Source of the DNA: a virus
Direction: 5' to 3' (one strand)
IMG/VR virus record: IMGVR_UViG_3300019776_000657
Span: 1 to 64,000 of that record
DNA: 64,000 nt
Part shown: one piece after another, positions 5,265 through 10,713 of the stretch
Position numbering within the stretch: position 1 is the first letter of the stretch
Layout of the letters: every line of letters starts with the position of its first letter
The notes under the pieces: generated by a model
Told to the model about the DNA's origin: nothing
Databases searched by the model: none
The model's input: the letters and a program-made list of their open reading frames with translations, nothing else
Position numbers and translations under genes: made by a program

Positions 5265-5537
5265 ATGAAACTGAAGACATTTGTATACGAAGATTTGAAG
5301 GGCAAGATTAGTAACCGCACAGTATTGGTGGTTCAAGAACCAACCAGTAAACTGAGTGGTATTGATGTAACAGAAGCTAACGATGAAGTCATTGTTAACT
5401 TTGCCTTGGCATACGAAACCGCACGTCAAGCATTCTTGGCAGAAGTGAGTGCACTGCAAGCTCAGTATGACCTGGTTCACCGGTTCCGTCAGTTCTTTGA
5501 GACTAAAATGGATGCGGTAACAGTAGAAGAACTTTGA
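5265..5537 (+). CDS. hypothetical protein, 90 aa, upstream of the tmRNA
   Basis: I do not recognise it. A start at 5265 follows the promoter at 5211 with a short leader. The product looks like a beta-rich N-terminal half and a long C-terminal helix (about residues 50-88). Its stop codon (5535-5537) lies at or within the first bases of the tmRNA acceptor piece, so the two probably share a transcript, and maturation of the tmRNA would remove the 3' end of this message. Confidence 0.7.
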   Translation: MKLKTFVYEDLKGKISNRTVLVVQEPTSKLSGIDVTEANDEVIVNFALAYETARQAFLAEVSALQAQYDLVHRFRQFFETKMDAVTVEEL

Positions 5538-5601
5538 TGGTTGTAATCCCTTCGGATCGAAGGCGTGTTGGACGAGGGTTCGATTCCCTCCAGGTCCACC
5601 A
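5538..5601 (+). ncRNA. ssrA: permuted tmRNA, acceptor (3') piece
   Basis: This is the tRNA-like half of a two-piece tmRNA, encoded before the coding half. It ends in a perfect T arm (GAGGG, loop TTCGATT, CCCTC, 5574-5590), acceptor strand CAGGTCC (5591-5597), A and encoded CCA. CAGGTCC pairs over all 7 bp with GGGCCTG at 5712-5718, giving a G-U pair at position 3, the identity mark for alanyl-tRNA synthetase. CGTGTTG (5564-5570) pairs with CAGCGCG (5731-5737), forming the long helix that replaces an anticodon stem. The bases GGACG before the T arm also match known tmRNAs. The 5' boundary is uncertain by some tens of bases. Confidence 0.9.
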
Positions 5602-5612
5602 AAAAGGATTGT

Positions 5613-5768
5613 ATGACAATATTTGACTTACCCTGGTGGCAACAAGCCGTGGGATATGCAGTCTGGATCAATTATTTTTATTGGTTTTACGTACATCCGA
5701 TTCTTTTTGATGGGCCTGACCAGGTTTCGACAGCGCGAGATAGTGAAGACGGCAACTCGGCAATGTGA
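5613..5768 (+). CDS. possible 51-aa peptide between the tmRNA pieces
   Basis: An ATG at 5613 follows AAAAGGA (5602-5608) and opens a frame that crosses the spacer between the two tmRNA pieces and ends inside the coding piece. Residues 8-34 are hydrophobic and aromatic (many W, Y and F), so a single membrane span is possible. The spacer of permuted tmRNA genes is normally removed and non-coding, so this may be chance. The good ribosome site is the only positive sign. Confidence 0.35.
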   Translation: MTIFDLPWWQQAVGYAVWINYFYWFYVHPILFDGPDQVSTARDSEDGNSAM

Positions 5769-5909
5769 AAGCCGTAGGGTTGGGATAACCCGGCCGAAGC
5801 AGCAAAAAACTTAAATGCCAATGATGCATTTTACGGAGAACTTAGCTTAGCAGCTTAAGTCTTCGGGCGGTTTGAAAAGGTTATCCGTCTTACCAAAAAC
5901 CTTTTCAAA
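5712..5909 (+). ncRNA. ssrA: permuted tmRNA, coding (5') piece with tag ANDAFYGELSLAA
   Basis: The piece starts with acceptor strand GGGCCTG and the conserved D-loop-like GGTTTCGAC. Next comes a classic H-type pseudoknot: ACGGC (5749-5753) with GCCGT (5771-5775), interlocked with TCGGC (5757-5761) and GCCGA (5793-5797). The resume codon GCC at 5817 opens the tag ANDAFYGELSLAA, ending at TAA 5856-5858; AND and LAA ends are typical of protease tags. After it is a second pseudoknot: GGCGG (5866-5870) with CCGTC (5885-5889) inside the loop of a 12-bp stem (5871-5882 with 5898-5909). The RNA would rescue stalled ribosomes together with host SmpB, which is not encoded in this window. Confidence 0.93.
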
Positions 5910-5947
5910 TAATATCTTAAAAATGACAATGATAAATAAATTTGTAT

Positions 5948-5976
5948 TTGCTATTTTTAAGCTATTATAGTATAAT
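5948..5976 (+). promoter_or_regulatory. promoter of the GIY-YIG gene (TTGCTA-17-TATAAT)
   Basis: TTGCTA (5948-5953) and TATAAT (5971-5976) are 17 bases apart. The -35 box ends a 17-base AT-rich element (AAATAAATTTGTATTTG) that recurs at three other promoters in the window. The start codon follows 24 bases after the -10 box. Confidence 0.75.
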
Positions 5977-5999
5977 ACTTCTATGTGCTGGAGGTATTT

Positions 6000-6689
6000 A
6001 TGACAATAGGTATTTATAAGTTAATTTTTTCCGGATTAGAAGATTGGCCTTATGTGGGGCAGTCTTCTAACATTGAACAAAGGTTTCATGGACATTGTTC
6101 AGATCTTAAACATGGCAAATCAAACTTTAAGATGCAAGAAGCATACGCTATGTCAGGATCACCAAGTCTCTACATTGTAGAAGAATGCAGTATTGAACAG
6201 CTTAACTCAAGAGAAATTTTTTGGATAAAAAGACTAAATTCTGTTGATAATGGCCTAAATTTAACTGATAAATGTGTTAATAATGGCATCGGAGAAGAGA
6301 ACTTTAGAAGTAAATATTCCAATTCTATTATAGAGAATGTATTTTTTACTATTGTTAATAATCCTGACAAAAATCTAAAAGAAATAGCAACTATTGTTGG
6401 GTTGGAGCATTCGATACTTGCCAGTATAGCCAACGGATTAAACCATACATGGTTGAAAGAAAAGTACCCTACAGAATATGAAGTAATGTTACGACAAAAT
6501 CGTAGGGGATTAAATACAGCCAAATATCAGGGCATAGAATATCCGGCCATAAAATCTCCTGATGGACATGTATATAACATTACTAATCTGCAAAAATTTT
6601 GTAGAGATCATGATCTACAACCTTCTTGTATACATGGCGTTTTGCATGGTAATAGAAAATCACACAAAAAATGGAAGTTAGCAGCCTGA
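6000..6689 (+). CDS. GIY-YIG homing endonuclease beside the tmRNA, 229 aa
   Basis: The start at 6000 has GGAGG 5 bases upstream; the longer frame opening with GTG at 5985 would place the ribosome site inside the gene. Residues 2-90 form a GIY-YIG nuclease domain (GIYKLIFSG, then YVGQSSNIEQRFHGH, then the basic helix and E/N residues). The middle has a helical segment. The C-terminus (SPDGHVYNITNLQKFCRDH to HKKWKL) is the DNA-binding NUMOD/IENR-type repeat seen in Seg-like phage endonucleases. It is closely similar in layout to the gene at 26032. Low-GC codon use and its own promoter mark it as a mobile gene set right after the tmRNA. Confidence 0.92.
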   Translation: MTIGIYKLIFSGLEDWPYVGQSSNIEQRFHGHCSDLKHGKSNFKMQEAYAMSGSPSLYIVEECSIEQLNSREIFWIKRLNSVDNGLNLTDKCVNNGIGEENFRSKYSNSIIENVFFTIVNNPDKNLKEIATIVGLEHSILASIANGLNHTWLKEKYPTEYEVMLRQNRRGLNTAKYQGIEYPAIKSPDGHVYNITNLQKFCRDHDLQPSCIHGVLHGNRKSHKKWKLAA

Positions 6690-6712
6690 AAAACTAGCTA
6701 AGCCAGGGTTTG

Positions 6713-6987
6713 GCCACATGTCCTTGTTATCAATCATGTGGCATTTTATAAGCACACTGCCACTTAATAAATAAATGCGGAGCAATCCGGTACGCCTTCC
6801 GCGGGTTAGGGTAACGCAGTGGTGGCCGCCACTGTTCCTGGTGTGCTTATAAAATACTAGCACTTCACTGATAAAGAAGACTGGTCAACTGTACTCAATT
6901 GGCTAGTGCTTGTATTGGCGGGCCTGTACAACCCCGAAAGGAACCCGCCTCCGCGCACGACGAAAACAGGATGGGCTGTCGTGCCAC
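6713..6987 (+). ncRNA. hairpin-rich non-coding segment, possible structured RNA
   Basis: This 300-base gap has no credible gene but contains a chain of strong helices. GCCACATG/CATGTGGC (6713-6720 with 6735-6742) is followed at once by a perfect 15-bp stem (6743-6757 with 6841-6855). Inside that stem are GCGGA/TCCGC (6777-6781, 6798-6802) and CAGTGG/CCACTG (6817-6822, 6829-6834). After it come AGCACT/AGTGCT around 6860-6910, GGCGGG/CCCGCC around 6917-6949 and GCACGAC/GTCGTGC (6955-6961, 6977-6984 region). It then meets tRNA-Thr. No RNase P, 6S or group I intron core was recognised. It could be an unknown phage RNA or a processing and packaging structure. Confidence 0.5.
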
Positions 6988-6988
6988 T

Positions 6989-7063
6989 GCCGTTTTAGCT
7001 CAGAGGTAGAGCAATCCCCTTGTAAGGGAAAGGTCGTCAGTTCGATTCCGACAAGCGGCACCA
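6989..7063 (+). tRNA. tRNA-Thr (TGT)
   Basis: Acceptor GCCGTTT pairs with AAGCGGC, followed by A and encoded CCA. The anticodon loop CTTGTAA gives TGT. Standard D (GCTC/GAGC) and T arms (loop TTCGATT) are present. It is the last tRNA in the cluster, directly after the hairpin-rich segment. Confidence 0.95.
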
Positions 7064-7082
7064 GACTTTCAAAATTTTTATA

Positions 7083-7111
7083 TTGAACCACACGCTCCAA
7101 TGTCTTATAAT
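7083..7111 (+). promoter_or_regulatory. sigma70-type promoter (TTGAAC-17-TATAAT)
   Basis: TTGAAC (7083-7088) and TATAAT (7106-7111) are 17 bases apart. The expected start point (about 7118) coincides with an ATG at 7119, so the message is likely leaderless or nearly so. Confidence 0.75.
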
Positions 7112-8614: not shown

Positions 8615-9864
<1,250 letters not shown>

Positions 9865-9960: not shown

Positions 9961-10713
9961 ATGAAGATTGAAATTCCAACTAACTGTCCTTGCTGTGATT
10001 ACACCCTAGATTGGGTAAACGATCAATTGTTCTGCCGCAATACGGCATGCAGTGCTCAGTTGAATAAAAAGTTGGAACATTTTTGCAAGACTCTTGGTAT
10101 CAAAGGATTTGGCCCTAAAACTGTAGAAAAGCTGCAAATTTCGGACATTACCGAAATTTACTATCTCGATGTACAGCAAGTTGCTGAAGGTCTGAATAGT
10201 GAGCGAACAGCCCTCAAGCTGTTGGATGAAATCGAGCGATCGAAAGTTGCAGATTTGGCTACAGTTTTAGCGGCGTTTTCCATTCCCCTGATTGGAGCCA
10301 CAGCCAGTAACAAAATTTGTAGTGTAGTAGGTCATATTGATGAGATCAATAGTGAAACGTGCAAACAAGCAGGTTTAGGTGACAAAGCCACACAAAACCT
10401 GTTGAACTGGATTGAAACAGAATATACAGAGCTAAAAGAGTTTTTGCCGTTCTCTTTTCGTTCAAATGCTCAAGTTACAAGTGAAGCGGATGGTCCCACT
10501 GTCTGCATTACTGGTAAATTGACTTCGTTTAAGACCAAGGGTGCAGCAACTGAAGCGTTGATTGCCGCTGGGTTCAAGGTAGTAGACAGTGTAACAAAGA
10601 CACTGTGTTATTTAATCGACGAAGCTAATGATAATAGTTCTAAGCGTAAAAAAGCAGAACAATACGGTATAACAATTGTTGATAACCTAACTCAATTTTT
10701 ACAGAAAGCATAA
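9961..10713 (+). CDS. ligB: NAD-dependent DNA ligase, zinc finger, HhH and BRCT subunit
   Basis: This is the second half of the split ligase. A four-cysteine zinc finger (C9, C12, C25, C30) is followed by helix-hairpin-helix repeats (about residues 40-165, including KGFGPKTVEKL and FSIPLIGATASNKI). A BRCT domain follows (about 172-250: TVCITGKLTSFKTKGAATEALIAAGFKVVDSVTKTLCYLI). It presumably binds nicked DNA and joins the adenylating subunit encoded upstream. It has its own promoter, so the two subunits can be made at different rates. The gene continues directly into the D5-like gene 2 bases later. Confidence 0.9.
   Translation: MKIEIPTNCPCCDYTLDWVNDQLFCRNTACSAQLNKKLEHFCKTLGIKGFGPKTVEKLQISDITEIYYLDVQQVAEGLNSERTALKLLDEIERSKVADLATVLAAFSIPLIGATASNKICSVVGHIDEINSETCKQAGLGDKATQNLLNWIETEYTELKEFLPFSFRSNAQVTSEADGPTVCITGKLTSFKTKGAATEALIAAGFKVVDSVTKTLCYLIDEANDNSSKRKKAEQYGITIVDNLTQFLQKA

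Follow-up and report, generated by a model that had tools for sequence, protein, structure and literature searches.

A permuted phage tmRNA gene with a candidate protein-coding spacer and an endonuclease element read as replacing its 3' end

Two-piece tmRNAs account for 53 of the 133 unique phage tmRNA structures in one study (PMC9004378), and 79 unique bacteriophage tmRNA sequences of all forms are recorded in another (PMC11915505). Some tmRNA genes contain group I introns, a number of which encode homing endonucleases and all of which are located in the T-loop region (PMC11915505). The intervening sequence (IVS) of permuted tmRNA genes, that is, the spacer between the two pieces, has so far been treated as discarded RNA; a recent database paper lists a tRNA in one of them, a repeat in another and no protein gene. 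A small gene whose fate depends on tmRNA is known in Escherichia coli, where arfA gives a nonstop message and its product is held down by tmRNA (PMC10107115). We found no open-access paper linking tmRNA with GIY-YIG endonucleases or with protein-coding intervening sequences, in a search that left most subscription journals outside its reach. The spacer open reading frame (ORF) and the endonuclease-split gene described here are new to us and absent from the papers searched. By scanning viral contigs for T-arm patterns, we identified dozens of further permuted tmRNA genes. The named phages with permuted tmRNAs are Pseudomonas SM1 and UF_RH6, Xanthomonas XacN1 and X1, Stenotrophomonas QDWS359 and Alcaligenes QDWS595, and none of these six has a Shine-Dalgarno (SD)-led spacer ORF, nor was an endonuclease insert seen in them. 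The published structures and our scans do not bear out the original prediction for the present locus in one respect: it had called a permuted copy in a phage unusual.

The locus belongs to an IMG/VR virus record of 79,827 bases, the first 64,000 of which constitute the window analyzed here. It was confirmed that the stretch at 5538-5909 is a real permuted tmRNA, as had been proposed from its letters, and it is of the beta type. When the permuted tmRNA models were run, as suggested at the time, two covariance models matched above their cut-offs (cmscan, Rfam), tmRNA_permuted (RF04321) at 5539-5858 with 118.6 bits against 47, and beta_tmRNA (RF01850) at 5483-5892 with 98.7 bits against 84. ARAGORN agrees, with a permuted tmRNA at 5509-5949 and the tag ANDAFYGELSLAA followed by a stop. 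The acceptor half with its CCA comes first in the gene and the coding half second, the two being joined by a 7-bp acceptor stem with a G3-U pair (5712-5718 with 5591-5597), which can be read directly and is exactly as first described. The acceptor piece consists of the 5' strand of the tRNA-domain helices and a T-arm with the T-loop TTCGATT, and ends with the acceptor 3' strand (5591-5597), A5598 and the encoded CCA (5599-5601). The coding piece comprises the acceptor 5' strand, the D-loop and the tag frame (5817-5858), which is open and has a degron-like LAA at its end, another feature that had been recognized. The pairings are conserved in related phages. Neither of the two outcomes named beforehand as speaking against the tmRNA, missing covariance matches and missing conservation of the pairings, was observed. 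Across 54 distinct permuted phage-locus tmRNAs, 91.0% of the cells of the 7-bp helix 5564-5570/5731-5737 are paired, which goes down to 27-60% when the helix is slid by 1-3 nt, and C-G/T-A and A-T/G-C exchanges reveal covariation. The acceptor G3-U is found in 54 of these 54 tmRNAs, a set chosen by a requirement for 7/7 acceptor pairing. The terminal 3' pseudoknot that had been spotted is also visible, with S1 (GGCGG/CCGTC) across S2 (TTTGAAAAGG/CCTTTTCAAA), the latter folding with a z of -3.5. In itself, the tmRNA is another member of a published kind, two-piece phage tmRNAs being already known. The original prediction was thus right about the tmRNA, but it missed the ORF in the spacer, as well as the endonuclease insert and the native 3' end that starts at 6678. 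The coordinates of all these features are given in Table 1.

Table 1. Features of the permuted tmRNA locus in the window (positions in the 64,000-base window)
Feature	Position	Strand	Basis
Conserved upstream ORF, 90 aa, syntenic anchor	5265..5537	+	78-80% identical in L016-L018
tmRNA acceptor piece	5539..5601	+	RF04321/RF01850, ARAGORN, direct reading
Intervening spacer (IVS), 110 nt, predicted to be cut out	5602..5711	+	leader-trailer duplex, precursor fold
Shine-Dalgarno AAGGA, 4 nt before ATG 5613, inside leader-trailer helix	5604..5608	+	sequence; pairing
Spacer ORF (candidate), 51 aa: MTIFDLPWWQQAVGYAVWINYFYWFYVHPILFDG/PDQVSTARDSEDGNSAM	5613..5768	+	sequence; L244 homologue; weak family-B similarity
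tmRNA coding piece	5712..5858	+	RF04321/RF01850, ARAGORN
Insert of 853 nt that uninterrupted relatives lack (new tag end, 3' pseudoknot and homing endonuclease)	5826..6678	+	
Replacement terminal 3' pseudoknot	5866..5911	+	sequence; fold z -3.5
GIY-YIG homing endonuclease	6000..6689	+	PF01541; PHROG homing endonucleases; PADLOC HEase
Displaced native tmRNA 3' end: TTAGCAGCCTGA (L-A-A-stop) and native pseudoknot	6678..6760	+	homology
tRNA-Thr(TGT), downstream syntenic anchor	6989..7063	+	ARAGORN; relatives

The gene shares with betaproteobacterial two-piece tmRNA (RF01850; general model RF04321) the order of the pieces, the tRNA domain, the G3-U, the CCA, an AND...LAA tag and the terminal pseudoknot. 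It differs in being phage-borne, in having an ORF in its IVS and in what we read as the replacement of its tag end and 3' domain by an endonuclease element. As in the two-piece tmRNAs of Methylophilales phage Melnitz (PMC9004378) and other phages, a complete permuted gene is present in a phage, but the Melnitz copy is alphaproteobacterial in kind and comes with a riboswitch (PMC9004378). The neighbors of the gene in the window are phage genes with T5-like replication functions, in line with what had been noted originally: a D5-like regulator, a DnaB-like helicase, a primase, Pol A, SbcCD and an NAD-dependent DNA ligase that is split between two separate ORFs (8920-9864 and 9961-10713). The beta-type tmRNA, together with a thyX match to Limnohabitans phage DC31 (67%), hints at a freshwater betaproteobacterium as the host, no more. 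An SmpB gene was sought in the 79.8-kb record, which is possibly incomplete, and none was found. We infer that the gene would be transcribed and processed, and that the phage probably makes a two-piece tmRNA that would be used with the SmpB of its host. Ribosome rescue and the redirection of tagged proteins, the roles suggested at the outset, are plausible candidates for its function.

Uninterrupted versions of the gene are found in five distinct syntenic relatives (L016, L018, L140, L142/L143 and L146/L147). The order of the locus is common to them, with the upstream 90-aa ORF, for which no match was found in PHROG or Pfam, followed by the tmRNA and by tRNA-Thr (L140 has a contig end instead of the latter). 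The reading that we favor, and hold with good confidence, is that the window has a working beta-type permuted phage tmRNA gene that has been modified twice, by a coding spacer and by an endonuclease element with a substitute 3' end. It is unlikely that the endonuclease has instead broken the gene, leaving a decaying or inert copy with no role in infection. One 3' domain is indeed orphaned, no close homologue of the new one was found among the sequences compared, which leaves its pseudoknot without covariation, and T-arm and spacer alleles are swapped among the relatives, all of which could be signs of decay. Nevertheless, the acceptor with its G3-U, the CCA, the T-arm, the D-loop and the tag frame are intact, as are the matches to both covariance models, and the relatives keep the gene with covarying helices.

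The first modification concerns the spacer. Immediately after the CCA in the window come AAAAAGGA, four bases, an ATG and the 51-codon frame, while the first and last ~14 nt of the spacer form a leader-trailer helix extending the acceptor stem (duplex and precursor fold), with a duplex dG of -10.0 versus -5.0 for shuffled ends. The frame stays open to the end of the spacer, where its codon GAT (5709-5711) leads directly into GGG (5712-5714), the mature 5' end of the coding piece, with the expected RNase P site between these two in-frame codons. This ORF most likely corresponds to a real protein because it has a 32-residue homologue (MTIFDLPWWQLSWGSLVVLNYLFWFVRMVVNS, at 1501-1596 of contig L244), with an alignment score that none of 20000 shuffles attained, and codons 1 to 10 of the two are separated by seven synonymous changes and zero amino-acid changes. 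Beyond codon 10 they have diverged, with many replacements. The L244 copy sits outside any spacer, just upstream of a permuted-type acceptor piece (the L244 tmRNA is cut by the contig end), and the small gene thus seems to move around the tmRNA gene. Similarity of the window ORF to a family of aromatic spacer proteins (family B) is weak, 47 of 20000 shuffles scoring as high, and so is its membrane character, with a best 19-residue Kyte-Doolittle mean of 0.9. No family name was found for the protein in PHROGs, Pfam or PADLOC. Comparable spacer ORFs were found neither in the five uninterrupted relatives of the same locus nor in named phage isolates, the latter searched by tblastn with the window, family-B and family-C proteins and by blastn with a stretch of L001.

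Spacer ORFs recur among phage tmRNAs and are under purifying selection at the protein level. From permuted phage tmRNAs, we collected 56 distinct spacers that were 60 nt or longer, whether or not they had an SD, and counted those with an SD and an ATG in the first 33 nt followed by a frame that runs to 15 nt or less from the spacer end, or beyond it. There are 13 such spacers, that of the window among them, where dinucleotide shuffles lead one to expect 0.7 (standard deviation 0.8); after clustering, the count is 11 of 50 against an expected 0.6. A pattern scan for a T-arm, CCA, AAGGA and ATG matched 65 viral contigs, ~42 of which are permuted tmRNAs whose ORF spans 20 codons or more. The same pattern matched 10 contigs in 84,980 bacterial and archaeal species, 0 of them permuted, a contrast defined purely by the pattern scan with one wording of T-arm plus CCA, which may miss alphaproteobacterial or cyanobacterial genes. 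A bacterial order reached through L202 yielded 3 strong permuted genes out of 150, too few for a control set of spacers. The encoded proteins form several families, including 23-24-residue membrane peptides (MNDDLTNLGIGVVVVLVVFALVLL), 41-residue proteins (MENLILLVLIVVLNVYWVYSLVTYDWSNFEKDQEQAKKDFF), aromatic membrane proteins (MFENWHWVYIWGIIVFVNYMFWIIKSLFD) and several soluble ones, and composition suggests a membrane location for most families. One of the soluble proteins matches PGDYG in Pfam (PF14083), just over the cut-off (27.8 against 27), and also PHROG 419. When homologues within the families were paired, dN was mostly well below dS, and pooled substitutions in seven pairs were distributed 45/28/84 over the three codon positions, with a p of 1.6e-7 that is approximate since the pairs represent one or two per family.

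These numbers bear on the possibility that the spacer ORFs arose by chance, the AAGGA strand being kept for pairing with the U-rich end of the spacer and the open frame being meaningless. The SD strand is helical in every case, and its part in the leader-trailer helix could by itself be enough to keep it. Spacers are also short, and such an ORF is missing from many permuted phage tmRNAs. We nevertheless regard chance as very unlikely in view of the excess of observed over shuffled frames, the bias to third codon positions, the low dN within families and the Pfam and PHROG family of one spacer protein, to which can be added the recurrence of the window protein outside a spacer with an N terminus changed only synonymously.

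If the spacer is indeed coding, its ORF would be intimately connected with tmRNA processing. In 27 of 27 distinct SD-led spacers, the SD strand is paired with the last bases of its own spacer, in a helix of about 8-12 bp that is stacked beyond the acceptor stem, with duplex energies of -6 to -12 kcal/mol, each below that of its shuffled ends. As the SD lies within the helix formed by the spacer ends, the ORF should be translated in competition with the folding and processing of the pre-tmRNA. The excised spacer would then also serve as a gene for a small protein, equipped with an SD and an ATG of its own right after the CCA, and phages would be using a discarded spacer as coding space. The protein would probably be made from the precursor or from the freed spacer, and more of it when the helix is open; expression and regulation of the ORF are candidate features read from the sequence. 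The frames end in three ways, with a stop one base before the mature 5' end (UGAU/GGG), with a stop 12 bases before it, or beyond the spacer, which then lacks a stop. The window ORF is of the third type, and a stop between start and processing site is also missing in L045, L149, L158, L159, L170, L182, L198 and L199. In the window, where the ORF is still open at the RNase P site, a cut at 5711/5712 should turn the message into a nonstop one. As with E. coli arfA (PMC10107115), RNA processing would deprive the message of a small ORF of its stop codon, but the resemblance is one of logic only, as the cut in the window would be the tmRNA's own maturation cut. It is tempting, although we would give it a rather small chance, to imagine that the spacer message and the tmRNA regulate each other, RNase P maturation removing the stop of the ORF or the helix hiding its SD, with the small protein accumulating only if maturation or rescue fails. 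If true, such mutual regulation would let the spacer monitor ribosome rescue in the infected cell, as a sensor built into the gene. More generally, if phages routinely place small genes in the spacer, one transcript would be both rescue RNA and message, and the start site of that message, in some families its stop codon too, would be tied to RNA processing. The reason why phages carry tmRNA could then be addressed directly, and a class of very small phage proteins, most of them unannotated, would come into view.

As for the second modification, the tmRNA gene of the window is interrupted relative to its syntenic relatives. Homology to L018 and others ends at ~5825, in the tag, and resumes at 6679, and the G+C content of the insert segment drops to 25-37%. 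The endonuclease has a GIY-YIG domain (PF01541) scoring 28.1 bits against a Pfam cut-off of 22.6. It likely starts at the ATG at 6000, behind GGAGG (the listed ORF starts with GTG at 5985), and its C terminus reads ...KKWK-LAA-stop, in which the LAA and stop codons (6678-6689) are those that end the old tag. A promoter-like site at 5948-5976 has 10/12 matches, no more than the shuffled count for the region. The displaced native end keeps its pseudoknot (S1, CAGGG/CCTTG; S2, GCCACATG/CATGTGGC) and matches L140 at 97% over 104 nt, L143 at 91% over 329 nt and L018 at 87% over >300 nt. At the other side of the insert, the tag is completed in frame by the replacement end GELSLAA-stop, and a pseudoknot follows; tags resembling this end are found in other phages (L121, L106 and L060; ANDAFYGEDRLAA, ANDAFFGENRLAA). 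The insertion is known from one instance, in metagenomic records only. No homing endonuclease was found near other tmRNAs, the homologues in L139 and L141-L143 lying elsewhere.

We read the insert as an endonuclease element that replaces the 3' end of the gene, with an outcome comparable to that of tmRNA-restoring islands, without an integrase. By the putative homing route that we infer, a GIY-YIG element would have entered the tag codons and brought a substitute tag end and 3' pseudoknot, leaving the upstream tmRNA complete and the original 3' end stranded behind an endonuclease whose reading frame closes on the LAA-stop of the old tag. As in integrase-type genomic islands in tmRNA genes, the element would bring a new 3' end, with the old one displaced downstream, but the 853-nt insert has one endonuclease ORF, no integrase is seen in it, and the gene is permuted. 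As in the group I intron cases (PMC11915505), a homing endonuclease resides in a tmRNA gene. However, those cases involve LAGLIDADG enzymes, a self-splicing intron and the T-loop region, whereas here we find a GIY-YIG enzyme, no intron, a site in the tag codons and a gene end apparently restored by a supplied copy. The insert would illustrate how a selfish element can enter a tmRNA gene intron-less and without evident loss of the gene.

That the insertion is a metagenome assembly artefact, joining two phages inside the tag, is highly improbable. The record is a single metagenomic one, and an 8-nt word (TTAGCAGC) present at both 5847-5854 and 6678-6685 could promote a false join, but a single false join would create one junction only, the flanks are phage-typical with order and spacing (90-aa ORF, tmRNA, insert, native 3' end, tRNA-Thr) as in the relatives without the insert, and the endonuclease has an intact ORF with an in-frame end. 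The notion that 5826-6678 is a group I intron with a GIY-YIG endonuclease, the splicing of which restores the native AND...LAA tag, is hardly credible and was rejected: group I introns are a frequent home of such endonucleases and are known in tmRNA genes, and the native exon end lies directly behind the insert, but no group I or II intron model matched across 5400-7100 with E up to 1, all but ~130 nt of the insert are taken up by the endonuclease ORF, the insert opens with a complete in-frame tag end and a pseudoknot, the tag end being of a kind present in other phage tmRNAs, and its site is in the tag, not in the T-loop region.

A number of additional observations were made in and around these genes. 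In L142 (6582-6670 as oriented), and also in L143, the spacer is 8 nt long and no CCA is encoded (CACTTCC-ATAATCTGG-GGGAGTG); the acceptor strands almost form a hairpin, the very short loop of which would have to be cut before CCA could be added. The acceptor pieces of L016, L018 and L140 have the T-loop ATCATTC instead of TTCGATT, with the T-stem intact, an odd variant that several phages thus retain. Between the tmRNA and tRNA-Thr of the window, at 6917-6985, there is an RNA-like element that is nearly invariant in the syntenic phages extending there and for which no Rfam family was found; it displays two hairpins (GGCGGG/CCCGCC and GCACGAC/GTCGTGC), the loops of which (CCTGT and ACAGG) could pair. 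A long inverted repeat at 6740-6855 (ATTTTATAAGCACAC/GTGTGCTTATAAAAT) is present in relatives with both arms changed (ATTTTATAAACACACC/GGTGTGTTTATAAAAT in L018, ATTTTATTAGGGTAGC/GCTACCCTAATAAAAT in L146) and is absent in L016. A further SD-led spacer ORF (MEKSELKLRQMYMQTAKSIVAFIRARSFGRC, then a stop) occurs at 1403-1490 of L246, which one T-loop base put outside the pattern. Permuted beta-like tmRNAs occur in phages of Pseudomonas aeruginosa, Stenotrophomonas and Xanthomonas (L013, L243, L241, L012 and L014), hosts that use a one-piece tmRNA. Very long tags, of 24-31 residues, are encoded by the viral permuted tmRNAs L001, L054, L069, L072 and L102 (for example ANADTFDFSAMSFTGNSVSGKSKVALAA). 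Finally, in Xanthomonas phage XacN1 (L012, 4342-4755), a GOLLD RNA scoring 227 bits lies ~1 kb downstream of the permuted tmRNA, in a tRNA-rich stretch.
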